A DNA stretch of 64,000 nt from Laspinema sp. D2d (lineage in GTDB: Bacteria; Cyanobacteriota; Cyanobacteriia; Cyanobacteriales; Laspinemataceae): assembly GCF_025370755.1 (NCBI RefSeq), contig NZ_JAMXFC010000025.1, forward strand, positions 1 to 64,000, read 5' to 3'. Numbering within the stretch: the first letter of the stretch is position 1; each line of letters opens with the position of its first letter. A program made the position numbers and the translations under genes. The notes beneath the pieces were generated by a model. The model was not told the DNA's origin. It was given only the letters and a program-made list of their open reading frames with translations, and did not search any database. Positions 43,779 through 61,230 of the stretch are shown here, piece by piece.

Positions 43779-43816
43779 GAGCGTTCGCAGAGGGTGAAAA
43801 CATTGGAGTAACTCTC
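43779..43816 (+). promoter_or_regulatory. Conserved gene leader, copy 1
   Basis: After an A-rich stretch (43743-43778): GAGCGTTCGCAGAGGGTGAA then AACATTGGAGTAACTCTC and ATG. First clear member of the leader family in this window. The ATG opens a 24-codon reading frame. Confidence 0.75.
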
Positions 43817-43891
43817 ATGCTCGAATTCTCGTTCATCCTAGTCGCGTTCTGGCTTTTGCCTGCCATCGCACATTGGCAACAATCTCACTAG
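43817..43891 (+). CDS. 24-residue hydrophobic peptide
   Basis: MLEFSFILVAFWLLPAIAHW, then QQSH and stop. It begins at the ATG at the end of leader copy 1 and would be a single-span membrane peptide. Leader copy 2 starts immediately after its stop. The leader is the only evidence besides the hydrophobicity, so it may be a truncated gene rather than a real peptide. Confidence 0.45.
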   Translation: MLEFSFILVAFWLLPAIAHWQQSH

Positions 43892-43927
43892 CTTCCGCAT
43901 GGGGCAGATTCATTCGAGGTCTGTCCC
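43890..43927 (+). promoter_or_regulatory. Conserved gene leader, copy 2 (diverged)
   Basis: AGCTTCCGCATGGGGCAGAT then TCATTCGAGGTCTGTCCC, directly before the GIY-YIG gene. The GAGG ribosome site is kept and the GGGTGAA core has changed to GGGCAGA. Confidence 0.55.
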
Positions 43928-44281
43928 ATGTCTTTTGTCTATCTGCTGCATTACGACCGACCGATTGGCAACCCACAACAAGCCAACGGAATGGCCCAGC
44001 ATTATCTCGGTTATACGCGCAACTTAAGCCAACGACTGCAAGACCACGCCCAAGGGAAAGGAGCCAAACTAACTGCTGCCTTTGCCGAACAAGGAATTGA
44101 GTTTGAGTGCGTGCGAGTCTGGAAAAACGGAACCCGCAGTCTGGAACGCCAACTCAAGCGGCGACATAACCATCCGCAACTGTGTCCCATCTGCAATCCA
44201 ACGCTGCAAAACCACGATAAACCACACGCGCAAAAAAGCGGTCACCGGCGCAGGGTGAAGTCGTTGGAAAAAACTAGATGA
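43928..44281 (+). CDS. GIY-YIG nuclease-like protein (small)
   Basis: A 117-residue protein: FVYLLHYDRP (GIY strand), HYLGYTRNLSQRLQDHAQGK (YIG strand, Arg and helix), AFAEQGIEFECVRVWKNGT, RSLERQLKRRHNHPQLCPIC. This is the fold of UvrC/homing-type single-domain GIY-YIG nucleases, about 90-100 residues. The last 17 residues (AQKSGHRRRVKSLEKTR) are encoded by a copy of the conserved leader (44232-44274), so the original stop seems lost and replaced. It is a candidate nuclease of a mobile or defence cassette. Confidence 0.75.
   Translation: MSFVYLLHYDRPIGNPQQANGMAQHYLGYTRNLSQRLQDHAQGKGAKLTAAFAEQGIEFECVRVWKNGTRSLERQLKRRHNHPQLCPICNPTLQNHDKPHAQKSGHRRRVKSLEKTR
44232..44274 (+). promoter_or_regulatory. 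Conserved gene leader, copy 3 (inside a gene end)
   Basis: AAAAAAGCGGTCACCGGCGC then AGGGTGAAGTCGTTGGAAAA AAC. It forms the 3' end of the GIY-YIG gene. The next ATG (44277) opens only a 7-codon frame, so the gene it once served is gone. Confidence 0.65.
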
Positions 44282-44371
44282 ATCATACACAATCGCGTTA
44301 GTTGCTGACAATTTTGTTAGGGCAATGGTTAACTGGAATTTTGGTTATCGTGATAGTCAATGCAATCGTTT

Positions 44372-44409
44372 AGGCTTTCGCGTCCGAGTGAAGTAATCGA
44401 TAGAATATC
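44372..44409 (+). promoter_or_regulatory. Conserved gene leader, copy 4
   Basis: AGGCTTTCGCGTCCGAGTGA then AGTAATCGATAGAATATC, then the ATG at 44410. Confidence 0.72.
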
Positions 44410-45060
44410 ATGCAACAACGAGCTTCTTCTCGGCTAATCCCCGGCTTTTGTGACAACGAAATACACTATTTTTGTGTCCAGTTATTGGCGCGCCAAATTA
44501 AACGTTGGCTCCGACGCGACTGTTCTCGGCAACGGATTGGTTTTACATCGCTGGACAACTACCTAAATTATGTTGCGCCCGAACGTGCCGCAGCCGCTCC
44601 CCATGTTGCCCGCGAACTCCAACGCTATCCGCAGTATGGTGATATCCAGCATATCGAACCACTGCGCCATAGTTTGCGGGTGATGTTCGGTGAGGATTTG
44701 GGTTTGGCTCCGGTGTTTCTAGCCAAATCTGACCTCTGCGCTCTAGCTGCACCTTCCCCTCGCTATTGCCAGTTTTATGAGCGCGTTATTTCCCCTCGGC
44801 TAGTCTTCTGCAACTATCGCTTAAATGGTGACAATGTGGAATGGAACTGGACCACTAACTTGGGCTTTTACTACAAGAATAACGCACAAAAATATCAAAC
44901 GCAAATACGAGAAAATAAACTCGCCAGTTATGCCCAATTACGTCGGGGAAGTCGCACAACCTGTCCGTGGGAGTTGAAAGTTTGGGGACTCAAAGAGCAA
45001 GAACAAGCAAAAATTGAACAAGCATTCGCGGTTAGTGAAACAATAGAGGAACGGTTATGA
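44410..45060 (+). CDS. Unknown protein
   Basis: A 216-residue basic protein with Trp and Tyr-rich segments: EIHYFCVQLLARQIKRWLRR, FTSLDNYLNYVAPERAAAA, FYERVISPRLVFCNYRLNGD, VEWNWTTNLGFYYKNNAQKY. No domain recognised. It follows leader copy 4 at the standard distance. The stop overlaps the start of the next gene (ATGA), so translation of the two is coupled. Confidence 0.7.
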   Translation: MQQRASSRLIPGFCDNEIHYFCVQLLARQIKRWLRRDCSRQRIGFTSLDNYLNYVAPERAAAAPHVARELQRYPQYGDIQHIEPLRHSLRVMFGEDLGLAPVFLAKSDLCALAAPSPRYCQFYERVISPRLVFCNYRLNGDNVEWNWTTNLGFYYKNNAQKYQTQIRENKLASYAQLRRGSRTTCPWELKVWGLKEQEQAKIEQAFAVSETIEERL

Positions 45061-45401
45061 ACGAATTTGGTTTTAAGATTAACCTGGATGACGAATACGA
45101 ATTTCCGAGCTTAGAATTTCAGGTCAGCCAGCCCGTCGCCATCCGTACCAACCAGCCTCCGACCCAATGGGATGTCGTCGAAGTCACCGGCATCAAACTC
45201 GACTATGCCCGTTGGCCGTTACCGCTGGATACGTTACGGTATCAGCCGAAATGGTACTACTGCGTCAAGGCGCGTGACTCTTTGCACGAACGCTGGCTTA
45301 TGGCTGAAGATTTGTGCGATATCCCGCAACTTAAAATCCTCCAAGCTCATTATCGGGCCTTAGAACGAATCCTCGACTTGGAAGCATTAATCGTTGAGTA
45401 G
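45057..45401 (+). CDS. Unknown protein
   Basis: A 114-residue acidic protein, FKINLDDEYEFPSLEFQVSQ, WDVVEVTGIKLDYARWPLPL, WYYCVKARDSLHERWLMAED, with a strand-rich core. It overlaps the preceding gene at ATGA and has no leader of its own, so the two are made together. No family recognised. Confidence 0.68.
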   Translation: MNEFGFKINLDDEYEFPSLEFQVSQPVAIRTNQPPTQWDVVEVTGIKLDYARWPLPLDTLRYQPKWYYCVKARDSLHERWLMAEDLCDIPQLKILQAHYRALERILDLEALIVE

Positions 45402-45498
45402 GTTCCTTTGTCACTTGATTATTTGGGGGATGCCCGTATTAATTGGCATCCTTCCCATTTTACGTTAGATAAAAAGGAAAAAACAATTGAAAAATTGA

Positions 45499-45534
45499 AG
45501 CTATCGCGGTGGGTAAAATTATCGAAAAAAAGCG
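45499..45534 (+). promoter_or_regulatory. Conserved gene leader, copy 5
   Basis: AGCTATCGCGGTGGGTAAAA then TTATCGAAAAAAAGCG, then ATG 45535. Preceded by an A-rich stretch (AAAAAGGAAAAAACAATTGA). Confidence 0.75.
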
Positions 45535-46059
45535 ATGAAACCACAAGCAAAAACTAGCGCAAATACTCCAACTCGCAAACCCCGTTATCGCATACCCATT
45601 GGTAGCACCAAACCCAACCGAAAACTAAACGAACTAGGACGGCAAGCTCAAAACTGGGTGATGGTTGAATGTGTCCTAACCTGGGCAAAAATGGCTCAAC
45701 AATACCAGTTATCGATTGAAGACCACATCCAGGCGGATTTGGGTGGCGACATCTTTATCTCGAAAGAACTCTACGACCGAGCCGATGGATTTGCCGAAGC
45801 CTATTCCTACAAGAAAAAAGTCTTGGAAGAATCGAACATGGACTACGACATCACCCAAGAATGGACGGCGGAAGAATGGGAGCGAATGCAGTGGGATCCG
45901 AATCTGCTAGAAGGACTCAATTACCTGTTTCATTCGGGCTTATCCGATGGCCTCTGGAACGAACAAAACTATCAACGAATCCAAGCAATCCAGCCTCAGA
46001 TTGACCCAACTCGCCTCAACCAAACACCGCCAAAACCCGACGATTACTTGACATTTTAG
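45535..46059 (+). CDS. Unknown protein
   Basis: A 174-residue protein: a basic start (KPQAKTSANTPTRKPRYRIP), then helical acidic parts (QNWVMVECVLTWAKMAQQYQ; YDITQEWTAEEWERMQWDPN) and a Pro-rich end. No domain recognised. Preceded by leader copy 5 at the usual distance. Confidence 0.65.
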   Translation: MKPQAKTSANTPTRKPRYRIPIGSTKPNRKLNELGRQAQNWVMVECVLTWAKMAQQYQLSIEDHIQADLGGDIFISKELYDRADGFAEAYSYKKKVLEESNMDYDITQEWTAEEWERMQWDPNLLEGLNYLFHSGLSDGLWNEQNYQRIQAIQPQIDPTRLNQTPPKPDDYLTF

Positions 46060-46109
46060 GACAAATTGGGCATGAAAAATTACCCAGTTTAACTAAGAAA
46101 ACTCTCGCT

Positions 46110-46148
46110 CAAATTGAATCAATCCAACAAACTAAAAAGGCAAATACC
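46110..46148 (+). promoter_or_regulatory. Conserved gene leader, possible copy 6 (weak)
   Basis: AAAACTCTCGCTCAAATTGA then ATCAATCCAACAAACT, then AAAAAGGCAAATACC and ATG 46149. The CTCTCGC and TTGAATCAAT parts match; the middle does not. Confidence 0.4.
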
Positions 46149-46619
46149 ATGACAACTGAACGCATTCAACAGACCGAATCCTTGCTCGACACTTACGGCA
46201 AACTCCGCTGGCAAAAGTATATCCTAGAACAGCAAATCCAAGAACTTGAACCCCAGGCCATCCAACAAGCCTTTGACGTGCTCTGTAACGGAGAAACGGT
46301 CAACGGCAAACGCAAAGTCTACCAAAGCACGGGCGAGTATCCTTGCAGCATCAGCCTCCAATTTCGCACCGTCAAGCCCAAACCTAGCGATGACCAAGAC
46401 CTCGAAAGCCTCGCCGAAGCGATCGCCCTCGAACAGCGCAAGGCTCAGTACCACAACGCCGATGCCCTCCAGTCCATCGAGGCGGCGATCGCTACTCTGC
46501 AAGCCAAACGTGACGAACTCTCCCAAACTGACGCAGGCCGCCAACTCCAAGCCGAGTATGCCGAGCGCGAATCGGCCCTGACCTGCAAAAAACCCAGCTT
46601 CCTAGTTCGGTTAGAATAA
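46149..46619 (+). CDS. Coiled-coil protein, unknown
   Basis: A 156-residue protein. The first third is helical (QQTESLLDTYGKLRWQKYIL; LEQQIQELEPQAIQQAFDV), with a strand insert (GKRKVYQSTGEYPCSISLQF) and a long C-terminal coiled coil (LAEAIALEQRKAQYHNADAL; IEAAIATLQAKRDELSQTDA). A structural or adapter role is likely. No name. Confidence 0.66.
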   Translation: MTTERIQQTESLLDTYGKLRWQKYILEQQIQELEPQAIQQAFDVLCNGETVNGKRKVYQSTGEYPCSISLQFRTVKPKPSDDQDLESLAEAIALEQRKAQYHNADALQSIEAAIATLQAKRDELSQTDAGRQLQAEYAERESALTCKKPSFLVRLE

Positions 46620-46647
46620 CGAGTCAACAATTAGCAATTTAATGTAT

Positions 46648-46684
46648 AGGCGTTCGCCCGGGGTGAAGTCATTGAGGAAAAGCA
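46648..46684 (+). promoter_or_regulatory. Conserved gene leader, copy 7
   Basis: AGGCGTTCGCCCGGGGTGAA then GTCATTGAGGAAAAGCA, then ATG 46685. The best copy of the 3' half (GTGAAGTCATTGAGGAAA). Confidence 0.78.
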
Positions 46685-47629
46685 ATGAAACTGATTGACG
46701 CACCCTGGGTTGAACGCGCCGGACACAAAATCTTGCAATGTCATCATCGAGGAGACCGACGCTTTTCGAGTCAACATTGCCTCGTGCGCTCGTTGGGTCG
46801 GATTGACAGCATCGCCAACCATTACCATCGCGCCAAACTGTTTGGCAACGGCAAAACCCCGCACAACGCCCTAGAGTCGAAAGACTGGGCAAATTTAGGG
46901 TTGCTGCATATTGGTTGGCGCTTGGGCGATTGGACGTTGCCAATTTGCCATGAACCGGGCCATCTCGACTGGGGAGAGCAGTACCAGATTGCCCTGTGGC
47001 TCAAGTATGTGCGAGACCATCAAGCATTAATTGAATATGCCCAGCAGTTTGACCAGTTCCAAGACGAAGAAGAGTCCCAGCTTTTGACGGCTCATATCTG
47101 GCAGACTTTAGTGAGTGATGGCCCGTTAGTCTTGCGCCGTCGTTGTCAGCCTCTGGTGCAATTGTTCGAGAATCCGCCGGTGTTGCAGATTCAAGCGCGA
47201 TTGGATTGCGATATCTACACCGGCATCATTGGCGTTCCCATCGATGACCACTATCCTCGCACGATTGCCCAAGCATTCCCTAACGCCTATCACAAATATT
47301 GTCAGCACCGTGATGCATTCACCCCGGGCAAACTGCAACTGATTCAAATCCTGGAGAATCCGCCGTTGTTCCTGGCTCATCTGGCTTTGGGCGATGATGC
47401 AGGAAGTGGAGCGATCGCTGGGCGTCTCCCAAGGAGAATCGCCTTCCAAGAATGCCTGTCCAAACTGCACCAGTTCGGCACCCAACAGCATCTGAGCGTT
47501 TACCTGCCAGCGCTGCCCATCGATGCGGCAAGTGATGCGATCGCCACGAACTGCCCCGGTGCGATTCTGTGCGACTGGCCCGAAAACGCCGGAGTCAGCG
47601 AAAGTCTAGGAAAGACGATGAAAAGATAG
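46685..47629 (+). CDS. Macro-domain-like protein, paralogue of the 62.2-kb gene
   Basis: The 314-residue protein shares with the product at 62222-63112 a conserved block: NHYHRAKLFG, then DWANLGLLHIGWRLGDWTLP, IALWLKYVRDHQALIEYAQQ, FDQFQDEEESQ. The C-terminal part (KLQLIQILENPPLFLAHLAL, ...ECLSKLHQFGTQQHLSVYLP, LPIDAASDAIA) resembles a macro domain, which binds ADP-ribose and often removes it from proteins or DNA. An inserted small repeat encodes AGSGAIAGRLPRRIAFQ inside that domain. The first block may be a substrate or partner domain. The relation to ADP-ribose is an inference from pattern. Confidence 0.62.
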   Translation: MKLIDAPWVERAGHKILQCHHRGDRRFSSQHCLVRSLGRIDSIANHYHRAKLFGNGKTPHNALESKDWANLGLLHIGWRLGDWTLPICHEPGHLDWGEQYQIALWLKYVRDHQALIEYAQQFDQFQDEEESQLLTAHIWQTLVSDGPLVLRRRCQPLVQLFENPPVLQIQARLDCDIYTGIIGVPIDDHYPRTIAQAFPNAYHKYCQHRDAFTPGKLQLIQILENPPLFLAHLALGDDAGSGAIAGRLPRRIAFQECLSKLHQFGTQQHLSVYLPALPIDAASDAIATNCPGAILCDWPENAGVSESLGKTMKR

Positions 47630-47712
47630 CACAACTCAATGAATAATTCAGGGCAAGATTAAGCGAAGAAAAAGAATTATTCAGAACTAGAAAGAAACAA
47701 AAAGCAACAAAA

Positions 47713-47751
47713 AAGCTCTCGCGTAGGGTGGAATTAACGAGGAATTGAATC
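47713..47751 (+). promoter_or_regulatory. Conserved gene leader, copy 8
   Basis: AAGCTCTCGCGTAGGGTGGA then ATTAACGAGGAATTGAATC, then ATG 47752. Preceded by AGAAACAAAAAGCAACAAAA. Confidence 0.76.
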
Positions 47752-48153
47752 ATGACTCAAGTAACTGAAAACAGCAACATTGTAAGCATCAACAAATCCG
47801 TGAAGAACAACGTGATAGACGATTCAGCACTAGGCTATGAAGTATCCGACCATGCCGAACGGTTGTATCGTCAAGTTTACTACGCAATCCGTGAAGAAGT
47901 CGGACGCATTGCCAAGGCTGGCAGCAAAGAAAAGTTTGACTGGAAAGAGTACAAACAAAACTTCGCTAAAACCTTTGGAACACCTGACAATCGCAAGTAC
48001 AGCCTCAAACAACTCCTAGAATATGCCCACCTCAAACTGGGCAAAAACCTAGAACAACTCATCGAAAGCAACCGCAAATCGTGTGAGCGTTATCAACGCT
48101 ACCAAAACCGTTTAGCCCAAGATGAAGACGTAAAAGACGAAATTCCCTACTAA
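47752..48153 (+). CDS. Unknown protein
   Basis: A 133-residue protein, mostly helical: LGYEVSDHAERLYRQVYYAI, KAGSKEKFDWKEYKQNFAKT, YSLKQLLEYAHLKLGKNLEQ. No membrane segment or signal. Leader copy 8 precedes it. Function unknown. Confidence 0.66.
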   Translation: MTQVTENSNIVSINKSVKNNVIDDSALGYEVSDHAERLYRQVYYAIREEVGRIAKAGSKEKFDWKEYKQNFAKTFGTPDNRKYSLKQLLEYAHLKLGKNLEQLIESNRKSCERYQRYQNRLAQDEDVKDEIPY

Positions 48154-48180
48154 ACCGATTGAACCAGGTGGGAGCATCAC

Positions 48181-48237
48181 CAGCTCTCGCCTGGGTTGAA
48201 ACTCATGCAATCTATTAACATCAGCGAGGTCATTCTC
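48181..48237 (+). promoter_or_regulatory. Conserved gene leader, copy 9 (with insertion)
   Basis: CAGCTCTCGCCTGGGTTGAA then ACTCATGCAATCTATTAAC, then CAGCGAGGTCATTCTC and ATG 48238. The 5' half matches well; about 20 extra bases separate it from the GAGG site. Confidence 0.6.
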
Positions 48238-48438
48238 ATGGAAAACCAACCGAATCAATCTTACCAAATGCTGGCTATTTCTGACCTGTTCATCCCTAAA
48301 TCTAACACAGCAGAAACACTGCCCGAATTCGAGTTACCCGACTGGCTTGAAGAATATGATGAGTCGATGCCCGTAGATGAAGCAACCAGCACAGCCGAAC
48401 AACGCTGGCTGGATGAACGGGACTACTACCAAGCTTAA
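48238..48438 (+). CDS. Small acidic protein, unknown
   Basis: A 66-residue acidic protein, MENQPNQSYQMLAISDLFIP, ending ERDYYQA. The ATG at 48238 was chosen by GAGG 9 bases before; the TTG at 48196 would add 14 residues encoded by the leader. No family recognised. Confidence 0.58.
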   Translation: MENQPNQSYQMLAISDLFIPKSNTAETLPEFELPDWLEEYDESMPVDEATSTAEQRWLDERDYYQA

Positions 48439-48485
48439 TCAAGCTCACTTTTGGGGTATCATGGCAGCGTCGCATAGATTCTGTC

Positions 48486-49328
48486 ATGTTTGCCCCAACC
48501 CCCGGACGTAGCGCCCCCATCCGCCGCGCTCTTAGTGTCCCGATTCGTCAATGTCTCCAATCGGGCATCATCACGCCAGACCGCACTCATTTCGATTATG
48601 GGTGCGGTTACGGATTCGATGTGGATTACCTGCAACACCAAGGCATTTGCTCGGCAGGCTATGACCCGTACCACCGACCACACGAGCGTAAACGAGCGGC
48701 AGATGTGGTGACGTTGTTGTTCGTGCTCAACGTGATTCGTGACCCGATAGAGCGCGAGGCAGTGCTGGTGGAAGCGTACCATCTCGCCCAAGAACAGTTG
48801 GTGGTGGCGATTAGCTGGGGTGAGGCGCAACCGCATTGGCGACCGGACGGGGACGGCTACCGTACCCAGTGGAACACCTTCTGCAAGTTTTATGATGCAG
48901 CCGAAATCCAAACGTTTCTATGTGCGATTCTCGGGCTATTCCCAATGCCGTTGTTGGGCGCGACAGGCGCTTACTTGGTGCCAAAACAGCATCCTGGCGA
49001 TATCCTGCAACCCCACGCCCTAACTCGCCGTCAACGTCGCCAACTGCTCAAGCACTATCAAGACGAACGGGTTCACCTCCTCGCTTCCGGCTGGGTTCCA
49101 TCTGAACAGGTCCGCTGGGATAGCATCCTCGCCAAAGGCTATCGGTATCCCAGACTGCGATCGCCTTTGCCTGACATCCCCAACCCTAACACGGGCAAAT
49201 TCAACAAAAGTTTACACGCTGGTGCAAAGGGTTCTCCCCGTCGCCGGTGGATTGAAGCGGCTCTGGCCCGTCGCGAACGGATGCGGATTCTAGCAGCCCG
49301 AATCGAGTATCTGAGTGCGATACAATAA
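48486..49328 (+). CDS. Methyltransferase, Dnd-associated type
   Basis: The 280-residue protein has a SAM-binding fold: HFDYGCGYGFDVDYLQ (motif I), AGYDPYHRPH (motif II), ADVVTLLFVLNVIRDPIER. This pattern is that of the putative methyltransferases linked to DNA phosphorothioation (TIGR04096-like), in which FDYGC...DD..YL and YVLNVIE(D/N)P are conserved. The C-terminal region is basic (FNKSLHAGAKGSPRRRWIEA). A paralogue (49523-50164) is convergent to it. No dnd genes are in the window, so the role here is not clear. Confidence 0.72.
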   Translation: MFAPTPGRSAPIRRALSVPIRQCLQSGIITPDRTHFDYGCGYGFDVDYLQHQGICSAGYDPYHRPHERKRAADVVTLLFVLNVIRDPIEREAVLVEAYHLAQEQLVVAISWGEAQPHWRPDGDGYRTQWNTFCKFYDAAEIQTFLCAILGLFPMPLLGATGAYLVPKQHPGDILQPHALTRRQRRQLLKHYQDERVHLLASGWVPSEQVRWDSILAKGYRYPRLRSPLPDIPNPNTGKFNKSLHAGAKGSPRRRWIEAALARRERMRILAARIEYLSAIQ

Positions 49329-53104: not shown

Positions 53105-53107
53105 AGA

Positions 53108-53143: not shown

Positions 53144-54469
53144 ATGAATACAGCAATCAACATCTCGGTGGTGAACGGCAAGGTCGGTGGATTCCGGGGA
53201 GTAAACCGGCAATACATTGGGCGTTCAAATGCACGTTACGGATTAGCACAATCGGCATTGGCGAATCCGTTCCATATTGGCAAAGATGGCAACCGCGAAA
53301 TGGTCATTGAGAAATATCGTCATTGGCTCTGGGTTCAGATTAAAGCGGGTCTGCGGGGCGAGTCGAATGCGGCATTTGAGGAGCTAATCTCGATAGCAAA
53401 ACGTGCAGTTCGCGGAGAAAAGCTAGAGTTGGCTTGTTATTGCGCTCCGTTAGGTTGTCATGGCGATGTGATTCTCAAAGCGATTAATTGGTTGGTTCAA
53501 GAAAATCTGGTGGAAGGTAAAAAGAAAATGAAGAAACAAGAAAAAGAAAAGAAAAATAAAGAGAAAGAAAAGGAAGTAAGCAAAAACAATGAAATGCAAG
53601 ATAAAAAGCTATCGCGGCGAGTGAAAAATAATCAGAACTTGGAGTCAACTATGCAGCTCAATTCAATCTCTAGCATCTTCAATCCGGCACATATAAAGCA
53701 AGCAAAACTTAATCGTGAGGCTGAGTACGAGATTAATAATTTGCAGTATTTGTTCAAGCAGCTTTATTATGGGTTGCGGCATTTTTGGTGGAAATCGCTG
53801 AGTAAGTCCGAAATCTGGCGGAATGCGTATGAAATGGGTCAGCTTGAAGTTTATCAGATAGCTCCAGGGCGGCGTAATGAGGATGGGAGTTACAGTCAAG
53901 CAGAATATGATTGGGACCGGATTAATGATTGGCGAGATGGCTTGTGGGCAACTTATCGGAATCAATTCTATGAAGAGTTTGAAGCGGAGTTCTTCTTGAG
54001 CGAGATTGATAAGGCGAATACGGTCAAGTCAATCAATCATCGTATTTCAATGTTGCTCTCGACAGCGAAAGTGTACTTTGGCGATAAGCTCATCAATCAA
54101 AACAGCGATGTGCCAGAGCTAGACCAGATTAAGGCAGCATTGTTAGAGATTAACAAAGCACAGCTAGAAAAGCGCAAATCCTATCAAAATCAACCTCAAC
54201 AATTGCGAGGACAAGTTGCGAATAGTCAGCCAATTGAAGCCGTCAAAAAACCTGTGCAGAAGTCGCAACCGAAAGCTACTCAACCGGCCAAATCGAACAA
54301 ACTAGAAATTGTGGCGATTCGCAAACGTAAGGAAGCCGAAGCACAGGCGTGGTTAGCTCAGAATCCAGAGTTTGCGGATAACGTGGATGCGAGTCTAGGA
54401 GTCAATGCAGTCAATGCAGTCAATGCAGAGAAAGTCGAAAAAGCAGCAACAGAACCCATTGAAATCTAA
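53144..54469 (+). CDS. Fused DUF4326 protein and unknown helical protein
   Basis: A 441-residue frame. Residues 1-125 are a DUF4326 domain: INISVVNGKVGGFRGVNRQY, IGRSNARYGLAQSALANPFH, LELACYCAPLGCHGDVILKA. Residues 126-169 are a Lys/Glu-rich linker. It is encoded by an A-rich stretch plus a complete copy of the conserved leader (53606-53650), which ends in ATG 53651. Residues 170-441 form another protein: an N-terminal helical part with YLFKQLYYGLRHFWWKSLSK, then a coiled-coil end. I think two genes were joined here when the first lost its stop. Whether the second part is also made alone from ATG 53651 is open. A strong terminator follows. Confidence 0.75.
   Translation: MNTAINISVVNGKVGGFRGVNRQYIGRSNARYGLAQSALANPFHIGKDGNREMVIEKYRHWLWVQIKAGLRGESNAAFEELISIAKRAVRGEKLELACYCAPLGCHGDVILKAINWLVQENLVEGKKKMKKQEKEKKNKEKEKEVSKNNEMQDKKLSRRVKNNQNLESTMQLNSISSIFNPAHIKQAKLNREAEYEINNLQYLFKQLYYGLRHFWWKSLSKSEIWRNAYEMGQLEVYQIAPGRRNEDGSYSQAEYDWDRINDWRDGLWATYRNQFYEEFEAEFFLSEIDKANTVKSINHRISMLLSTAKVYFGDKLINQNSDVPELDQIKAALLEINKAQLEKRKSYQNQPQQLRGQVANSQPIEAVKKPVQKSQPKATQPAKSNKLEIVAIRKRKEAEAQAWLAQNPEFADNVDASLGVNAVNAVNAEKVEKAATEPIEI
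53606..53650 (+). promoter_or_regulatory. Conserved gene leader, copy 11 (inside a reading frame)
   Basis: AAGCTATCGCGGCGAGTGAA then AAATAATCAGAACTTGGAG and TCAACT, then ATG 53651. It lies in frame within the 53144-54469 gene, and is translated as a Lys/Arg-rich linker (SRRVKNNQNLEST). Confidence 0.78.
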
Positions 54470-55104: not shown

Positions 55105-55168
55105 AGAATGATAAAATCAAGTCACACTAGAAAACCAAGTTACATGAATAAAACCGAGTAAAAACGAG

Positions 55169-55206
55169 CCAGCTATCGCGATGGGTGAAGTTATCGGAAT
55201 AAAACG
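55169..55206 (+). promoter_or_regulatory. Conserved gene leader, copy 12
   Basis: CCAGCTATCGCGATGGGTGA then AGTTATCGGAATAAAACG, then ATG 55207. Confidence 0.78.
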
Positions 55207-55701
55207 ATGCAAACCCAGAAAGGAATTACGCTTGTGGAATTGTTAGTCACTGTTTTAATTGTTGCCATTATCGCAGCGATTGTTATCCCATCTTGGCTAT
55301 CATTTCTGCAAGATTATCGTACTCGTTCAGCGCGAGATAATGCCTATCAAGTGCTGCTCAACGCCAAATCTACAGCACGACATACTAAGGAAACTCATGA
55401 AGCTTGTTTCCGCGAACATCAAGGCAATATCGAATATTCTGTGCATCATCGTCGATGGGGCGGAACCTGCACCAACGCAAACTGGCAGAGTCTAGGGATA
55501 CCCCAGGTCAAGATTGATGCGGCAAATACTAGCTTTTATCATCGCAACAATATTTATCGAGTTCAATTCAACTATTTGGGCGTAACGAATGGACGACTAG
55601 GACGGATTACGTTCCGTTCAGGAAAACACCGATACTGCACCTATTTGTCAACATTACTTGGGGCGCAACGTAAACAAAAAGGACAAAATTGTAACCGTTA
55701 G
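55207..55701 (+). CDS. Type IV pilin-like prepilin
   Basis: The 164-residue protein starts MQTQKGITLVELLVTVLIVA, the prepilin peptidase site (G6-I/T, with Glu at position 5 of the mature protein: GITLVE) and the hydrophobic helix (VIVAIIAAIVIPSWLSFLQD). It should be cleaved after Gly6 by PilD and assembled or held in the membrane. A C-terminal globular part has Cys at EACFREHQG, GTCTNANWQ, RYCTYL, NCNR. No other pilus gene is here, so it would use host machinery. Leader copy 12 precedes it. It could be a minor pilin for surface binding or DNA uptake. Confidence 0.85.
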   Translation: MQTQKGITLVELLVTVLIVAIIAAIVIPSWLSFLQDYRTRSARDNAYQVLLNAKSTARHTKETHEACFREHQGNIEYSVHHRRWGGTCTNANWQSLGIPQVKIDAANTSFYHRNNIYRVQFNYLGVTNGRLGRITFRSGKHRYCTYLSTLLGAQRKQKGQNCNR

Positions 55702-55710
55702 AATCAACCG

Positions 55711-55751
55711 AGAAGCTCTCGCAGTGAGTGAAGTTATTGCAAGAGTTTACG
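55711..55751 (+). promoter_or_regulatory. Conserved gene leader, copy 13
   Basis: AGAAGCTCTCGCAGTGAGTG then AAGTTATTGCAAGAGTTTAC G, then ATG 55752. It follows the pilin-gene stop by 10 bp. Confidence 0.75.
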
Positions 55752-55916
55752 ATGCTCATTCGGTTCCAACAACTCACCATCGGCAGCACTTTCCGTTACG
55801 GCGGCGGTCGCTGGCTCAAGTCCAGCACCAACCAAGCTCAACTCATCGGCCAATGGTCCTCCCAACTCGGCCAGCCCATTGCATTCGCACCCACTGACTT
55901 GACAATTTATCGCTAG
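55752..55916 (+). CDS. 54-residue protein, unknown
   Basis: MLIRFQQLTIGSTFRYGGGR, then WLKSSTNQAQLIGQWSS and a short tail ending TDLTIYR. The ATG is set by leader copy 13 at the standard distance; an earlier frame opening at 55728 adds residues encoded by the leader. Probably a small beta-rich protein. It would be missed by most length filters. Confidence 0.6.
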   Translation: MLIRFQQLTIGSTFRYGGGRWLKSSTNQAQLIGQWSSQLGQPIAFAPTDLTIYR

Positions 55917-56074: not shown

Positions 56075-56490
56075 GAGTGTTACGATCGCCTCGACAGCCT
56101 GAGTGATTAGGTTGCTGGTATTATTCATGCGATCGCTAAGGACAGTTTCGGTGAGTTGGTTCTTTACCTTGAGTAGTGCAATCGTCAAGGATAAGTCTCA
56201 CTATTGGAATTACGGTTTCTTTACAAAACTTTACATGATGTCCTATCGTGCCCGTATCTCGGCTGGGCTTGAGCAGGACCGATTGCTTAGGTAGTCTGGG
56301 TGATTAGGCTACTGCATTATGCGCTTTCCAAGGGCAGTCTCGCTCAGGGCGCTGATTGACCAGAATATTGTGATCGCCTAGGCAGCTTCAGTAGTTGAGC
56401 CGGTGTTTGGTTGATGCGATCGCCAAGGATAGTCTTCGGTTGGTTTGAGTGTTGCGATCGCCTCGTCAGTCTGAGTGATGGTGCGGGTTG
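56075..56490. repeat. Degenerate tandem repeats with HIP1 cores
   Basis: Alternating units: one like GATCGCCTCGACAGCCTGAG TGATTAGG (56085, 56279, 56372, 56456) and one like GATCGCTAAGGACAGTTTCG GTGAGTTGG (56131, 56180, 56323, 56420). Copies differ at many positions. No gene lies here; short frames in it are shadows. Confidence 0.6.
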
Positions 56491-56593
56491 TTTGGCGTTG
56501 GGACAAAAACGGCAATGACTTGTGGATTATGGACAAAATAAAGACCATTCTAGTAACCAATAAAAACTAACAAAACCAAATAAAAACAAATAA

Positions 56594-56631
56594 AAGGCTT
56601 TCGCAGAGGATGAAAAAAATGAGGACAAACT
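56594..56631 (+). promoter_or_regulatory. Conserved gene leader, copy 14
   Basis: AAGGCTTTCGCAGAGGATGA then AAAAAATGAGGACAAACT, then ATG 56632. Preceded by A-rich CAAAACCAAATAAAAACAAA. Confidence 0.78.
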
Positions 56632-56955
56632 ATGAAAAAATTAGGAATGACTGAAGCCGAATTTGTCAAAATTTTTCCCGCCACTGAGAAAGAAACTTTT
56701 TGGGACAAAATAGGGGTTGGCTTAGAGTGGATAACCTATGCAATCTTTCTCTGGGTGATTCTCGGTAACCCGCTCTATGGCGTGTACCAGTATCTTACCA
56801 CCGAAACTTTAGAGCAGCATTGTGAACAGATAAGAACCGAAATTCGCACTATCAACAACTATACCAAAGTAAAGCTTAAAGATGTCTGGAAATCCGAATG
56901 GGAAAACTGTTCGGAAATTGCCCGCCATAAAGCCAGAATCCTAAGAAACAATTGA
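56632..56955 (+). CDS. Small membrane protein, unknown
   Basis: A 107-residue protein with one membrane segment (WITYAIFLWVILGNPLYGVY) and polar ends: a charged N-terminus (KLGMTEAEFVKIFPATEKET) and a C-terminal helical region (EQHCEQIRTEIRTINNYTKV). Leader copy 14 precedes it; a stem-loop follows its stop. No family recognised. Confidence 0.68.
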   Translation: MKKLGMTEAEFVKIFPATEKETFWDKIGVGLEWITYAIFLWVILGNPLYGVYQYLTTETLEQHCEQIRTEIRTINNYTKVKLKDVWKSEWENCSEIARHKARILRNN

Positions 56956-56968
56956 CCCGTTCAAGCTA

Positions 56969-56991
56969 AACCCGCCCACAACCGGCGGGTT
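56969..56991 (+). terminator. Hairpin after the small membrane-protein gene
   Basis: AACCCGCC / GGCGGGTT, 7-base loop, no T-run. It is the same kind of hairpin as at 10.69 kb. Termination is uncertain. Confidence 0.45.
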
Positions 56992-57004
56992 GACGGACTC
57001 AAAT

Positions 57005-57124
57005 TCACTCGTAAGACTGGAGCCATTCCGCCATTCGCTGACTCACCCAGTCGCCAACCATCTTGCTCTCAACACCCATCAAGTTAGCCCCCACAAATCT
57101 GTCAATACCATCAGCAATTCTAAT
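57005..57124 (-). pseudogene. Possible C-terminal gene fragment
   Basis: On the minus strand an open stretch reads IADGIDRFVGANLMGVESKM, then VGDWVSQRMAEWLQSYE and stop at 57005. It looks coding and has no start beyond an internal ATG. It may be the end of a lost gene. This is a weak call. Confidence 0.25.
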
Positions 57125-57180
57125 GCATAAAACACAAAATAAATCGTGGATTATAAGATATAATGATGAAAAAATCAACT

Positions 57181-57216
57181 AAAGGCTTTCGCAGTGGGTG
57201 AGACAGACGAGATAGA
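57181..57216 (+). promoter_or_regulatory. Conserved gene leader, copy 15 (long spacer)
   Basis: AAAGGCTTTCGCAGTGGGTG then AGACAGACGAGATAGAG. The matching part ends there, and the ATG of the next gene is 68 bp further on (57285), with AAGGAG as the ribosome site. The leader may have been separated from its gene. Confidence 0.65.
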
Positions 57217-57284
57217 GTCTGACCCCAAAAAAAGGAACGGCAGCAACCGTCCCAAACCAAGTAATTAATCTAAGGAGATTATAG

Positions 57285-58619
57285 ATGACAACCGTAGTAA
57301 TCGGCTACTACAAAACCACCGAATTGCTAAACGCAGCGATTTGGGACCATATCAAGCATTACCAGAATGTATCCCAGGCAATTAGTGTGCGATTCGAGCC
57401 GTACCAGAAACCTGTCTGGCATCGGGGCCATGTCCTGTATCACGAACTCAAATTCAAAGCCATCGTGACTTACGAGACTGTTGATGGCAAGATTCAGACA
57501 CGCCGCTGTTCGGCGCAAGGCTGGAGCGTTTTCGGCATTACCCGCGAGAACAATCAGTTACGAGTCCACAGTTGGGATGGCCGTGAGTTCCATGAATATG
57601 CCCTCACCCGCACAACCTGCACCTGCCAGTCCTTCCAGTTCCAGACTGGCTTAGTCGAGGGCCAGTGCAAACATTTACAGGTAGCTGCTCCCGAACTCAA
57701 TCAATCGCCTTGGCTCGAACAACCGCTCTATGTTTACCCGTTTGGACAACGACAAGCCGAACCTGAAACGGTGCAGCTTCATCCCGGTTTGGTCTTAGCA
57801 CCTGGGTTCCGGTTGGTCCGCACAGCGCAAGGATATCGGGTGGTGGCAGACCTGCGCGATCGCATGGGACGAGAGCAGGCTAAGGTCATCGGGACCGTGG
57901 AGCAGCAGGGCGAATGGGTCAACTACTCGAATCCGCGCGGTACATTCGGAAAACGGGTCACCGCCACTGCCACGAATTTGAGGGTGATGTGCCAAGAGTT
58001 GCACCAGCGTTCGATGTATAGCGATTGGCAAGTGATAGACCCGAACGCCAAAGACGAGGATAAAGTGGACCTCAATGAATTGGCGAGTGCGGCGATCAAC
58101 TGGAGCCGCATCAAGCCGATCGCTAACCGGGCAACCCCGCAACCTGCAACCCCGCAACCGACACCGGCGCGATCGGGTGAGGACGAAGTAGACCTCCAGG
58201 AACTCGCAAGTGTAACCATCAACTGGAGCCGCATCAAGCCGATCGCTAACTCGGCAACCACACAACCGACACCGGCGCGATCGACACTGATCCGACCGGC
58301 AACCCCGCAACCTGCACCGGCGCGATCGGCACCGGCGGCGAAACAATCCGTGCAGTCCGAGCAAGAACAGCACCAGACTCGAACGATTCGGGTGGAGAAG
58401 GACGAAGAGACTGGACTCTACTGGTTCCGCGATATGAACACGGACAAATTCTGTGGTGATGGCTACCCAAAAGACCTCGTAAATTACCGCGCTCAACAGT
58501 TTATTTTAATGGGATGTGTCGTGGAAACCTTCGACCCAACTAAGGGAAAATGGTACGTCTTCCAAAACCAGAAATGGCTTCCCGTTAGTTCCCCTCAACC
58601 GGCTTTAGTCTTAGCTTGA
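57285..58619 (+). CDS. SWIM zinc-finger protein with duplicated linker
   Basis: The 444-residue protein has a SWIM-type zinc finger near residues 105-130 (TTCTCQSFQFQTGLVEGQ, then CKHL), i.e. CxC...CxH, a module for binding nucleic acid or protein. Before it is a beta-rich part (VRFEPYQKPVWHRGHVLYHE; VTYETVDGKIQTRRCSAQGW). The linker holds two copies of VDLxELASxxINWSRIKPIA (58.07 and 58.19 kb) between PATPQP-type runs. The C-terminal part (TRTIRVEKDEETGLYWFRDM) is a small beta domain. SWIM proteins occur with helicases and transposases; none is next to it. Confidence 0.78.
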   Translation: MTTVVIGYYKTTELLNAAIWDHIKHYQNVSQAISVRFEPYQKPVWHRGHVLYHELKFKAIVTYETVDGKIQTRRCSAQGWSVFGITRENNQLRVHSWDGREFHEYALTRTTCTCQSFQFQTGLVEGQCKHLQVAAPELNQSPWLEQPLYVYPFGQRQAEPETVQLHPGLVLAPGFRLVRTAQGYRVVADLRDRMGREQAKVIGTVEQQGEWVNYSNPRGTFGKRVTATATNLRVMCQELHQRSMYSDWQVIDPNAKDEDKVDLNELASAAINWSRIKPIANRATPQPATPQPTPARSGEDEVDLQELASVTINWSRIKPIANSATTQPTPARSTLIRPATPQPAPARSAPAAKQSVQSEQEQHQTRTIRVEKDEETGLYWFRDMNTDKFCGDGYPKDLVNYRAQQFILMGCVVETFDPTKGKWYVFQNQKWLPVSSPQPALVLA

Positions 58620-58710
58620 TTGGGTCATATCTGGCCTCTATCTGCTATCAAATGGAGGTCAGATAAATCCAAGAAAGAAGGAAAAAATAAGTAAAGTAAG
58701 CTAAAAATAA

Positions 58711-58748
58711 GAGCCTTTCGGATAGAGTGAAACAATTGAGAATTTGTT
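58711..58748 (+). promoter_or_regulatory. Conserved gene leader, copy 16
   Basis: GAGCCTTTCGGATAGAGTGA then AACAATTGAGAATTTGTT, then ATG 58749. Preceded by the A-rich AAAATAAGTAAAGTAAGC. Confidence 0.74.
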
Positions 58749-59414
58749 ATGACTCAAACAGACAGAAAACCAACTATCTCGGTATTTGGCTTCAAAGAAG
58801 AAAACGCACTCGTTGTCCCGGAGATTCCGATTAATGCTCGGAACAATTGTCAAGCTGGAAAGTGGACTCTAGGCGATGAAGACTACGGCTCGAAAGTGAC
58901 CATGACCATCTTAAAGTTTAGCAAGTTCTTTGGCAGTCTAGGTCAAACGAAACATACGCTCTGGGGACAGATTTGGTTCATCGCTGAATCGGGGGAATTG
59001 CCTCACGATGTTTTGCTAGTAACCTACGTCAAAGGTCGCAGCCTCAGTGACTTCAACCGACTCGTTGCCACCGTCCAGGCGCGAGGGATTGAACCGGCTG
59101 AAGGGCTATTTATTCCTAGTTTCATCAAGCATTCGGGCCAGAAACCGGACGAGTCGGGCATGGTCAAACCGATTAACTATTACAGCCTCAAATGGGACTG
59201 GATGGAACGCTCGAACTGGGACATGATTGAGAAGGCCGCAGCGGTATTAGCCGATCCACAAAACCAAGCGCGGATGATTGACTTAGATGGCACACGCGAG
59301 ATGATTTGCTTAGACGAATTACCGCCTCATCAGATTGCTAACTTGATGGCTGCTCACTTGGGAAATTCGAGCCAAACTCACGAACCGAACGTAAAACTTT
59401 TGGCGGGCAACTAA
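58749..59414 (+). CDS. Unknown protein, possible DNA-binding type
   Basis: A 221-residue protein, TDRKPTISVFGFKEENALVV, GKWTLGDEDYGSKVTMTILK, LWGQIWFIAESGELPHDVLL, VKGRSLSDFNRLVATVQARG, then LKWDWMERSNWDMIEKAAAV. The layout (an extended strand-rich part and a helical tail) resembles phage recombination or ssDNA-handling proteins of cyanobacterial plasmids, but I cannot name the family. Leader copy 16 precedes it. Confidence 0.65.
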   Translation: MTQTDRKPTISVFGFKEENALVVPEIPINARNNCQAGKWTLGDEDYGSKVTMTILKFSKFFGSLGQTKHTLWGQIWFIAESGELPHDVLLVTYVKGRSLSDFNRLVATVQARGIEPAEGLFIPSFIKHSGQKPDESGMVKPINYYSLKWDWMERSNWDMIEKAAAVLADPQNQARMIDLDGTREMICLDELPPHQIANLMAAHLGNSSQTHEPNVKLLAGN

Positions 59415-59427
59415 CTCAAGCATTCTC

Positions 59428-59646
59428 ATGGAAGGCTATCAGCTTTATCTTGACCTTAACGTGCGAGGAATCCGGCTAGAAAGTGGTGATAGAGTCTTGA
59501 TTTTGAGCGGTCCACAAGCGGGAAAAACGGGACGGGTCAGTATTCCTCGCTATTGGGCAGGTCGGGATTTTCAAGATTATTTCGTGCGCTTACGCGGGAA
59601 TAAACGTATCTCTTGCCCTCGTCATCAACTGCACAAAATCAAGTAA
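59428..59646 (+). CDS. Small KOW-motif protein
   Basis: A 72-residue protein with a KOW-type turn, GDRVLILSGPQAGKTGRVSI, as in ribosomal protein L24, NusG and other nucleic-acid-binding proteins. It starts 13 bp after the preceding stop, without a leader of its own, so it is probably translated with it. The end RISCPRHQLHKIK is basic. It likely binds RNA or DNA. Confidence 0.72.
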   Translation: MEGYQLYLDLNVRGIRLESGDRVLILSGPQAGKTGRVSIPRYWAGRDFQDYFVRLRGNKRISCPRHQLHKIK

Positions 59647-59650
59647 AAAC

Positions 59651-59672
59651 TGGGAGGTTTAGAAGCCTCCCA
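59651..59672 (+). terminator. Hairpin after the KOW gene
   Basis: TGGGAGG / CCTCCCA, 8-base loop, starting 4 bp after the stop. It has no T-run, so it is a weak terminator at best. Confidence 0.4.
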
Positions 59673-59746
59673 CCCCATCTCACCGGCATCAACTGCCAAG
59701 AAATCTTGCACTCAACCTGTAAACCTTTGCACTTTGGAGCATTACC

Positions 59747-60205
59747 ATGACCGAATTTACCGATTTCTGGAGCCGCAATGGATGGCTCTGTCAATTCCAG
59801 CATCGCGATGGAGTCGTGGGTGATTGCCTCATCATCACGCCCCACGTTAGGCCGCCCTATCACACTAGCGATCGCTACCAAGGCTGGAGTGTCACTGCAC
59901 TTGAAAGCTGGTTCCAAGAACTAGAGGAAGCCACCACTCTCACTATGGTCTTGCCCCAAGCCGAAGTACCGGCCTTGGACTTGCGAATCTTTCCCACACC
60001 GGACGGTTACTGGTGCGCCGCTTGGCCGCCGATGCCCGAAAGTGAGCCGGGTCAGATTTATGTTCTAGTGCGTCGGTTCAGTCCCCATCCGAGTTGGCGC
60101 TCGTGGGATTGGCAGGAGCGCGCTGAAGCCAGTCGGTTGCAGCACATTCAAGACCAACTCGCCCGGGCTGCCAAGATGATTTGGCGAGCAATCGAGCGCG
60201 GTTAG
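59747..60205 (+). CDS. Unknown protein
   Basis: A 152-residue protein rich in Trp (TDFWSRNGWLCQFQHRDGVV, YQGWSVTALESWFQELEEAT, YWCAAWPPMPE), with a basic helical tail (RLQHIQDQLARAAKMIWRAI). No family recognised. No leader motif is visible before it. Confidence 0.65.
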   Translation: MTEFTDFWSRNGWLCQFQHRDGVVGDCLIITPHVRPPYHTSDRYQGWSVTALESWFQELEEATTLTMVLPQAEVPALDLRIFPTPDGYWCAAWPPMPESEPGQIYVLVRRFSPHPSWRSWDWQERAEASRLQHIQDQLARAAKMIWRAIERG

Positions 60206-60301
60206 TGACCGTTGAGGCGATCGCTTCCCAACGAGGCAATCGCCTGTCAAAATTAAAGGGTAGTCTTAACAATTATTGCTAATCAAACGGAGCAAAATCG
60301 G

Positions 60302-60679
60302 ATGAATCTTGAGCAAATTAAAGTGTTTTTGGACAGCCAGAGCGAGGAATTATCATTGAGCGATTATCTAGCTTTGGCTAAGGTGGCAACTCATGCGGCA
60401 TTCTTGGTAAGCAGCGAGGATGAAGACTGTGACCCTCTAGTTGTCAGCCCTGAAGAATATGCGCTGCAAGATGGAGACTTCTGCCATTTCCAGGATGCGG
60501 CACAATCTCAACTTGATGAGCTAGATTTCTGGTGGTTTCATGAGCTAAACTGGAATCCAATGTTAGAAATTCAGCTTTCCTCGACTAACTGGATTAATCT
60601 AGCCCAATGGCTCTTAGAACGCGCGGCCCAAGCTCGTAAGGAAACTTTGCCCTACAAACAATTGCAACTATTTGATTAA
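60302..60679 (+). CDS. Unknown acidic protein
   Basis: A 125-residue acidic protein (LEQIKVFLDSQSEELSLSDY; AAFLVSSEDEDCDPLVVSPE) with a helical tail (LAQWLLERAAQARKETLPYK) ending QLQLFD. The pI should be low, as in DNA mimics and anti-restriction proteins, but there is no direct evidence. A CGGAG ribosome site is before the ATG. Confidence 0.62.
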   Translation: MNLEQIKVFLDSQSEELSLSDYLALAKVATHAAFLVSSEDEDCDPLVVSPEEYALQDGDFCHFQDAAQSQLDELDFWWFHELNWNPMLEIQLSSTNWINLAQWLLERAAQARKETLPYKQLQLFD

Positions 60680-60756
60680 GAAAATCTAGCCAACAATGAA
60701 CGATACTAGATAAAATTGTCAGACGAGTCAAAATCCAATAATCGAGAACCTTACCC

Positions 60757-61179
60757 ATGCAAAAACAAAGCAGAGTCTTGTCAATCAAAACCTCGAAAAT
60801 ACCTTGCCCTTGGTACGAGGATTGGAATGCCTCAACCCAGTATCTTGAAGAAAAAGCAGCATGGGATTTTACTCGCAAAGGATTACCTCCAAAAGAGCCT
60901 AAATTATCCTGGAAAATTAATTGTCTCCGAGGAATATTACAGGCTGTTGGGTTTATGCTTGATAACGTTGGGCTGCAAAGAAAACCTGGTTATTTCTATG
61001 GTGAGATTCCAGAAAGGGTTGAGTCGGTTTCGCTAGAGTCTTGCCTTGAAACGGGTGAGGGCGAGTTCGTGCAAACTTTGACCAAAAAAGTATGTCACAA
61101 CCTAGCTAATAAAGAATTGCATATAGCGGAATACTTGATGCAAGTGCGGGGTGTAACTCAAACAAAATCTAGTCCATAA
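60757..61179 (+). CDS. Unknown protein
   Basis: A 140-residue protein: LSIKTSKIPCPWYEDWNAST, then a helical part (EPKLSWKINCLRGILQAVGF) and a C-terminal helical part. No domain recognised. The sequence before the ATG (CAATAATCGAGAACC) has a hint of the leader's 3' half only. Confidence 0.6.
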   Translation: MQKQSRVLSIKTSKIPCPWYEDWNASTQYLEEKAAWDFTRKGLPPKEPKLSWKINCLRGILQAVGFMLDNVGLQRKPGYFYGEIPERVESVSLESCLETGEGEFVQTLTKKVCHNLANKELHIAEYLMQVRGVTQTKSSP

Positions 61180-61187
61180 GAATTAGC

Positions 61188-61230
61188 AGAGGGTCCATTT
61201 GGTGAAAGTCTATTTGGAGATTAGGAAATC
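61188..61230 (+). promoter_or_regulatory. Conserved gene leader, possible copy 17 (weak)
   Basis: AGCAGAGGGTCCATTTGGTG then AAAGTCTATTTGGAGATTAG and GAAATC, then ATG 61231. Pieces of the core (GCAGAGGG, GGTGAAAGT, TTGGAG) are in order with extra bases between. Confidence 0.4.

Follow-up and report, generated by a model that had tools for sequence, protein, structure and literature searches.

Start-associated sequences, known as SAS and ESAS in actinobacteriophages, have a first phage description from 2011, and a 2024 paper still calls them "ill-defined" (PMC11373665). The published accounts give SAS a length of 13 bp and a usual distance of 3-9 bp to the start codon, with AGGAG in cluster K, and present ESAS as an upstream 17-bp inverted repeat, joined in Adephagia by a putative SigA-type -35/-10 promoter; a role in translation start is suggested there and termed ill-defined (PMC3203893, PMC7302621, PMC11373665, PMC12699233). 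The SAS consensus is given as GGGATAGGAGCCC in cluster K and GGGAAAGGACCCC in cluster EF, at the ribosome site (PMC3203893, PMC7302621, PMC11373665). Intergenic repeats are also described for halovirus HF2, nine of them with promoter activity and with AT-rich motifs (PMC8707807).

We analysed a window of 64,000 nt, the first part of a 100,132-bp plasmid-like contig of Laspinema sp. D2d, and find a repeated leader before many unrelated genes. By analogy, SAS/ESAS are its closest known kind: both are short repeats 5' of the start codons of unrelated genes on one replicon, oriented with the genes, conserved beyond a Shine-Dalgarno sequence and provided with an extra upstream element. The original prediction that no element like it had been described was thus too strong, since phages of clusters K and EF have a described analogue in their start-associated sequences (PMC3203893, PMC7302621). 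The plasmid leader differs from SAS in its consensus, in beginning 35-39 nt upstream and in having the ribosome site outside the motif, and from ESAS in carrying an A-rich tract, with no inverted repeat or SigA-type promoter found; moreover, SAS and ESAS reside on phages and this leader on a plasmid-like cyanobacterial replicon. Like the HF2 repeats it recurs 5' of genes across one replicon, but those have promoter activity and no such promoter was found here. In the ops/RfaH system, a leader signal with a mini-hairpin recruits a NusG-type factor to a horizontally acquired gene set. The plasmid leader likewise accompanies a horizontally acquired gene set and has a possible 2-bp mini-hairpin, but it occurs once per gene rather than once per operon, and a Pfam scan of 68 contig proteins turned up no NusG paralogue. 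Richness in A around start codons may help initiation; the leader shares this feature, but it leaves the conserved GCTNTCGC-N3-GGGTGAA unexplained.

Leader copies on the contig

When a single mismatch to GCTNTCGC-N3-GGGTGAA was allowed, the two strands of the contig together had 12 sites, 10 of which have a start codon (ATG/GTG) 35-43 nt 3' of the motif (range scanned 30-45), 48183 and 57185 being the two without one in that range. With GCTNTCGCNNNGGGTGAA and up to two mismatches there were 13 sites, both strands of the whole contig included, and 12 of these differ at no more than one position. In leave-one-out matrix scoring of 13 sites, 12 reached 18.9-31.3 and the weak copy 44374 had 6.4. 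A first-order Markov background predicts 1.7 matches above 13 per 100 kb, and six additional non-leader sites on the contig score 13.4-17.3; their number is above that expectation, and their scores are below those of 12 of the 13 leaders.

All nine copies named in the original prediction are present (9/9; marked in Table 1), and the same run also holds 45022, 53608 and 57185 as well as the weaker 48183 and 46101. Its restriction to this 18-kb run was wrong, as there are minus-strand copies too, 63149 (gene at 63112) inside the window and 76104 (contig numbering; gene at 76065) beyond it; at 61230, where the run was said to end, there is no leader-type match in the motif scan or among the matrix matches listed. 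In the whole 6.6-Mb genome TCGCNNNGGGTGAA has 14 matches, three of them on this contig; eight genome matches were read and comprised two leaders and six non-leaders, mostly HIP1-like coding sequence. A sequence model found no off-contig match in the same genome better than E 0.186.

Table 1. Leader copies in the window (positions of the whole stretch; "yes" marks copies named in the original prediction).
Span	Strand	Motif start	Start codon	Named	Remarks
43745..43819	+	43781	ATG 43817	yes	A-rich stretch; 24-aa ORF
44374..44412	+	44374	ATG 44410	yes	weak; one base extra in spacer
44988..45059	+	45022	ATG 45057		within 3' end of upstream ORF 44410-45060
45465..45537	+	45500	ATG 45535	yes	
46101..46151	+		ATG 46149		degenerate; Microcystis and G688 homologues likewise with leader
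46615..46687	+	46650	ATG 46685	yes	
47680..47754	+	47715	ATG 47752	yes	30/30 bases from motif start identical in sister species
48183..48240	+	48183	ATG 22 or 55 nt 3'		weaker, leader-like
53574..53653	+	53608			inside ORF running from DUF4326 (53144) into next gene (53651-54469)
55137..55209	+	55172	ATG 55207	yes	exact consensus; pilin-like gene
55680..55754	+	55715	ATG 55752	yes	upstream stop 14 nt before
56562..56634	+	56597	ATG 56632	yes	
57150..57287	+	57185	ATG 57285		TATAAT begins 26 nt 5'; ATG 100 nt 3'
58679..58751	+	58714	ATG 58749	yes	variant CCTTTCGG-N3-GAGTGAA
63110..63185	-	63149	ATG 63112		54 nt past upstream ORF

From motif start to start codon the distance is 35-39 nt in 11 of 13 measured copies and 43 and 100 nt in the remaining two, a list that leaves out 44374 (36 nt) and 48183 (22 or 55 nt) and for which we chose the start codons. 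The upstream stop has no set place, lying as far as 681 nt 5' of the motif start and up to 38 nt 3' of it: 11-54 nt separate it from copies 76104, 55715, 46650, 43781 and 63149, and copies 45022 and 53608 sit within upstream coding sequence. Leaders inside or just behind upstream genes need not mark transcript starts. The DUF4326 and 53651 counterparts are separate genes in Microcystis.

Comparison of 15 leader-gene proteins showed a single related pair, 46685 and 62222 (27% identity over 286), and apart from this pair one 12-residue match at E 0.006; the genes are not recent duplicates. The core of the original prediction finds support, also across species: a common leader stands before unrelated genes, is longer than a Shine-Dalgarno sequence and sets a distinct module apart.

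Anatomy, conservation and predicted structure

In 5' to 3' order the leader comprises an A-rich, T-poor tract (~25-40 nt), the bipartite motif, ~8 nt, a ribosome-site region and the start codon, with a GAGG/GGA-type ribosome site in many copies. The tract 5' of the motif is strand-asymmetric (A 0.60-0.69, T 0.12-0.15). Comparison of 13 orthologous pairs with the sister species gave identity at 172/182 (95%) of the fixed motif positions, at 25/39 (64%) in the N3 spacer and at 391/546 in the 40 nt upstream (gapped alignment); within GCTNTCGC, none of the 13 pairs differs at positions 1-3 or 5-8.

The predicted unpaired fraction of the upstream tract is 0.69 in 10 leader genes vs 0.50 in 19 others, and predicted openness does not differ for the motif (0.45 vs 0.46) or the start region (0.55 vs 0.54). 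Folding and covariation, which had been suggested as a check, supported no stem: TCGC-GTGA is at shuffle level and the leader folding tests produced no convincing stem. A 2-bp GC-N4-GC pairing lies above shuffles in alignments (24/26 and 25/32 leaders), an effect both tiny and confounded. In window positions 40000-64000, Rfam gave no family at gathering score, and its three matches up to E 5 were all far below.

There is no TANNNT peak 5' of 32 leaders (at most 2 at any position vs a base-shuffle mean of 3.2), and neither the promoter scan nor the hexamer count found a -10 or -35 element at a constant distance from the motif. A TATAAT 20-26 nt 5' of the 57185 motif, read by eye and with no -35 partner listed, is kept in both species and would place the motif inside the transcript; between this motif and ATG 57285 lie another hairpin and ribosome site.

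Several other candidate roles were rejected. Many copies can be read as (K/R)LSxxVK in one frame, yet a stop interrupts that frame at 55715 and in its orthologue, and N3 is free (by eye). An upstream ORF starting at the GTG of GGGTGAA was ruled out by GCG, GTA and GTC at that place. As for complementarity to a contig-encoded RNA, the two strong minus-strand matrix matches are leaders themselves.

Occurrence in other genomes

A degenerate form of the leader, often ending RGTGAAAAC or GTGTAAA, stands 5' of the homologues both on plasmid p1 of Microcystis and in G688, a third genome. Gene order is unlike among Microcystis, G688 and this contig and the leaders remain with their genes; leader and module occur together in three lineages, and the protein families of 46149 and 53651 bear the leader in all of them. 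When 67 ORFs are ranked by a Microcystis-only profile, seven from the G688 run come out on top, with the A-rich part making up much of the signal, and the motif columns alone place only four leader genes within the top 11 of 283 ORFs on this contig. A Microcystis-only model recovers just 2/26 leaders of this contig (C24) and G003 at E <0.05. These poor matches indicate that the motif is degenerate between lineages and that the signal comes in large part from the A-rich tract.

Model R1, built from 13 leaders of this contig, matched 3/291 genomes of the order and 2/386 of the phylum at E<=0.001. Besides G000 and G003 it had single matches in G163 (coding-like on reading) and G475, which were rejected, as was a match within the genus in G002 (E 0.003), HIP1-like on reading. 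Model R3 at E<=0.01 had matches in 19/388 and 24/386 genomes; 33 loci were read by eye and G688 was retained, and the G644 contig proved to be that of the Microcystis MAG. G248, with CCTTCGG-type leaders and no module genes, and G210 and G243, with one each, are tentative and uncounted.

Viral contigs contained 74 stretches with an exact pattern match, and none of the eight with A-rich upstream sequence that were inspected was leader-like; viral-contig scans with A5, A9 and A10 found no relatives, and that with A6 found 59 loci. Homologues of 58749 are without the leader by pattern on 13 genome contigs from outside Microcystis (L054-L066; 11/13 were inspected upstream, L065 and L066 beginning at the gene), and the 10 in IMG/VR contigs lack it too. 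One viral-contig homologue, L068, has GCTATCGC ~90 nt 5' of its ATG, without the second half. Two leader-gene proteins tried against the phage collection had no match. The 46149 and 53651 families were absent from every other plasmid record and viral contig searched, and 53651 also from phage records.

Possible function of the leader

Our preferred reading, held tentatively and as close to an even call, is a start-associated mRNA leader that belongs to one accessory module of cyanobacterial plasmids, is common to its genes and acts on translation start. It would act within the mRNA, whether in the 5' UTR or between two cistrons, with the A-rich tract as an open landing tract and the motif as a sequence-specific contact, and would set the efficiency with which the 30S subunit starts on its cistron; the module genes would thereby respond together, probably to a trans-acting factor. 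The fixed distance to the start codon, and not to upstream features, argues for a leader read in mRNA; copy 57185, 100 nt from its start codon, fits poorly with direct ribosome action. In a bolder version, which we consider unlikely, the leader would be a private expression code: the module would place it before most genes taken up, and a module-encoded factor would read it in the mRNA and license the ribosome, incoming genes being silent until tagged. The proteins 46149 and 53651 are candidates for this factor, since their genes carry the leader in all three lineages and are absent from the other records searched.

The three options originally offered fare differently, RNA-level control or a translation signal fitting best. 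A signal read as DNA at the level of transcription (a promoter, an operator or an ops-like co-transcriptional recruitment site for a NusG-type factor before each gene) seems somewhat unlikely. Four Microcystis leaders (25958, 33513, 33873 and 34870 of L052) stand directly behind terminator-like stems after the upstream gene, and their genes would then need a nearby promoter, but shuffled sequence has about as many such stems (19.5, sd 5.6) as the 20 counted there. The possible 2-bp mini-hairpin in GCTNNCGC pairs in 78% vs 62.5% in shuffles (0/500; 25/32 leaders, 58714 among those omitted), a signal that comes partly from leaders whose entire 5' half is lost. A 72-aa KOW-type protein at 59428-59646 (PF00467, 21.7 bits, just missing the cut-off of 22.3) could suit such a system, but is found also in leaderless Laspinema. 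Against transcription also stand the lack of a -10-like hexamer at constant spacing, a regional promoter scan whose 21 hits are close to the chance level (shuffles 17.3, sd 3.9), the constant start-codon distance and the copies within upstream genes; a single-subunit RNA polymerase gave no match in a search whose controls likewise gave no signal.

That the leader is only a generic strong ribosome site in A-rich sequence, copied within the module and needing no dedicated factor, we judge decidedly improbable. The A-rich tract and GAGG-type sites would suit it, and copying is suggested by the pair 45500/55172, with 25/30 bases in common in each species against an average of 18.8 for leader pairs within a genome, and by Microcystis p1, where the pilin leader and ~220 nt are present twice, around a DUF6876 gene. 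The GCTNTCGC block, however, lies too far upstream for Shine-Dalgarno pairing, and its invariance beside a free N3 in the sister pairs also speaks against a generic site. Most improbable by far is a recombination site bounding exchangeable gene cassettes. Leaders do stay with their genes as gene order varies, and the DUF6876 duplication takes in a leader, but the duplication ends fall outside the motif (one duplication and one syntenic intergenic pair examined), no good inverted repeat was found and copies on both strands follow gene orientation. Homologous neighbors, moreover, occur with and without the leader: 57285 and 58749 adjoin here with leaders, and their Laspinema homologues (27% and 72% identical) adjoin without them.

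An mRNA leader acting on translation start would be a second start-associated case, unrelated in sequence to SAS, on plasmid-like replicons of photosynthetic bacteria. That the same gene families keep it in distant lineages despite altered gene order suggests that some mobile elements give their own genes one common start signal. RNA data for Microcystis p1 could be searched for transcript 5' ends; control microcosm metatranscriptomes are reported to average >5,000 TPM per gene on this plasmid (PMC12510456).

Distribution of the leader on the contig

The leader is real, conserved, linked to one gene module and located at start sites. It comprises an A-rich stretch, a bipartite motif whose two blocks are separated by three bases, and the ribosome-site region. 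Fuzzy and matrix scans of the whole home contig (C24) upheld the original prediction that it is repeated before many genes; C24 is 100,132 bp long in a genome of 6.6 Mb, and the window covers its bases 1-64000. GCTNTCGCNNNGGGTGAA with at most one mismatch was found at 12 sites on C24, and 10 of these sit 35-43 nt ahead of a start codon, the exceptions being 48183 and 57185. Against the 1.7 matches above 13 expected by chance per 100 kb, leave-one-out matrix scores over the contig were 18.9-31.3 at 12 of 13 sites and 6.4 at the other (44374); six non-leader sites on C24 scored 13.4-17.3. Site 58714 scored 21.6 with a matrix built without it.

Between 43 and 62 kb lie about 25 plus-strand genes, and reading by eye placed the leader at 14 of them, three with weak copies (44410, 46149 and 48238); it is missing from genes 43308, 43928, 48486, 49359, 53144, ~54538 (SLOG) and 59428-61231. 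Minus-strand copies at 63149 and 76104 precede minus-strand genes, so the repeat tracks gene direction and extends past the 18-kb run to which it had been thought confined.

Conservation within the genus

Runs of the leader were found in two of eight genomes of the genus, the home genome and its sister species G003, whose contig C17 is syntenic with C24 at about 82% identity over the query stretch. Comparison of 13 orthologous leader pairs gave identities of 172/182 at the fixed motif positions, 131/156 in the 12 bases after the motif and 391/546 in the 40 bases upstream, the last aligned with gaps; N4 is identical in 12 of the 13 pairs and the N3 spacer at 25/39 positions. Selection therefore acts on two motif blocks around a free 3-nt spacer, and further upstream preserves mainly A-richness, the A fraction there being 0.61 and 0.60 in the two species.

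Recurrence in other lineages

Searches with tblastn pointed to plasmid p1 of Microcystis aeruginosa NIES-2481, in which a same-strand run holds homologues of DUF4326, 53651, 46149, 58749, 47752, part of 46685 and the DUF6876 gene 75703, along with an annotated prepilin-type gene. At 13 sites in this run, which correspond to 12 of its 20 annotated plus-strand genes plus one short frame, a degenerate motif with endings such as RGTGAAAAC, GTGTAAA, GCGAAAAC and TCGAAAAC comes after an A-rich stretch. A model made from 12 p1 leaders, run over the entire plasmid, detected 12 sites, all within the run: 11 of the leaders used to build it plus the omitted copy at 34961. A DUF6876 paralogue elsewhere on p1 (L052:1484) has no leader. 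A third lineage, G688, has homologues of 46149, 58749, the methyltransferase, 33623, 53651 and SLOG in a different order, all but SLOG preceded by the leader. The leader recurs, in degenerate form, before homologous genes in p1 and G688, in line with the earlier view that it marks a distinct module.

With the full 54-column Microcystis profile, seven ORFs of the G688 run ranked top among 67 (scores 9.4-21.2, next 1.8), and leader genes made up 8 of the top 10 among 283 ORFs of C24; conversely, all top nine of 111 ORFs on p1 were leader genes under the C24 profile. Two results count against this: the Microcystis motif columns alone placed only four leader genes in the top 11 on C24, and the Microcystis model recovered only 2 of 26 C24 and G003 leaders at E <0.05, so the A-rich tract supplies much of the signal common to the lineages.

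Probable gain or loss of the leader, and its spread

The leader is absent from 58749 homologues of Laspinema, Oscillatoria, Tychonema, Okeania and others (at most 81% identical), so it is a property of the module rather than of the gene. The 57285 and 58749 homologues adjoin in both C24 and Laspinema with leaders only in C24, so that the leader seems to have been gained or lost in situ. The 57185 copy stands upstream of a 5' region resembling that of Laspinema (alignment score 40 against a maximum of 35 in 100 shuffles), as though it had been added to that region. Resemblance to Laspinema is marginal before 55207 (31, shuffles up to 29) and was not found before 58749 (18, shuffle mean 16.8). 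Certain leaders nearly duplicate one another; those at 45500 and 55172, for example, agree at 25 of 30 bases.

On p1, the DUF6876 gene and its own leader are flanked by two direct copies of about 220 nt (L052:33846-35060), each spanning the pilin 5' region, the pilin leader and 38 nt of pilin coding sequence. At the corresponding place in genome G622 the stretch is single and the DUF6876 gene is missing; either state may be the older.

Level of action

The distance from motif to start codon is almost constant, that to upstream genes variable, and leaders lie in 3' ends of upstream genes, between cistrons and behind terminator-like stems. No constant upstream spacing of a -10-like hexamer emerged across 32 leaders. 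TATAAT 20-26 nt upstream of 57185 is kept in both species, and in the Microcystis pilin unit TTGACC-18-TAATTT, read by eye and unlisted by the promoter scan, follows a terminator well ahead of the leader. Predicted openness exceeds that of other genes for the A-rich tract but not for the motif or the start region. These observations favour, without proving, an RNA element close to the ribosome site. The reading with the best support, about as likely as not, is that the leader controls translation start at the RNA level, and a putative trans factor is plausible. Folding, raised in the original prediction, left the TCGC...GTGA stem no better than shuffles; a 2-bp GC-N4-GC hairpin exceeds shuffles, but the hairpin is tiny and the excess stems in part from leaders that lost the block.

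Related elements and other features

Window 40000-64000 searched against Rfam gave no match at gathering score. The nearest described kind is the start-associated sequences (SAS/ESAS) of actinobacteriophages, which share its logic but differ in sequence, spacing and replicon. Among the open-access papers listed by literature searches, none has a title or abstract that describes such a leader on cyanobacterial plasmids, which is weak evidence of absence. The CCTTCGG leaders of genome G248 possibly form a separate, similar family.

Further features on the contig and in another genome
Feature	Location	Observation
620-aa sigma-70 with long N-terminal part, then 1099-aa SNF2-type helicase with PLD domain	window 1685-6869	
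Two proteins with eCIS core domain (PF13699)	window 21843-25627	
Inverted repeat TGAATAATTC...GAATTATTCA	window 47640-47690	Upstream of 47715 leader; kept in sister species
DUF4326 and next gene in a single open frame	window 53144-54469	Fused via A-rich leader (lysine-rich linker); separate on p1, leader between
72-aa KOW-motif protein	window 59428-59646	Adjoins 58749; small, without rest of NusG; also in Laspinema contig L058
CRISPR-like array	L010:342-2392 (contig 84342-86392)	27 direct repeats, ~36 nt common (GTTTCCAATCAACTAATTTCCCTAGCGAGTAGGGAG), 70-89 nt spacing; repeat array also in matching region of sister contig
A-rich + CCTTCGG leaders on three genes	L264 (G248 contig C10, 49.8-51.5 kb)	Gene content unrelated
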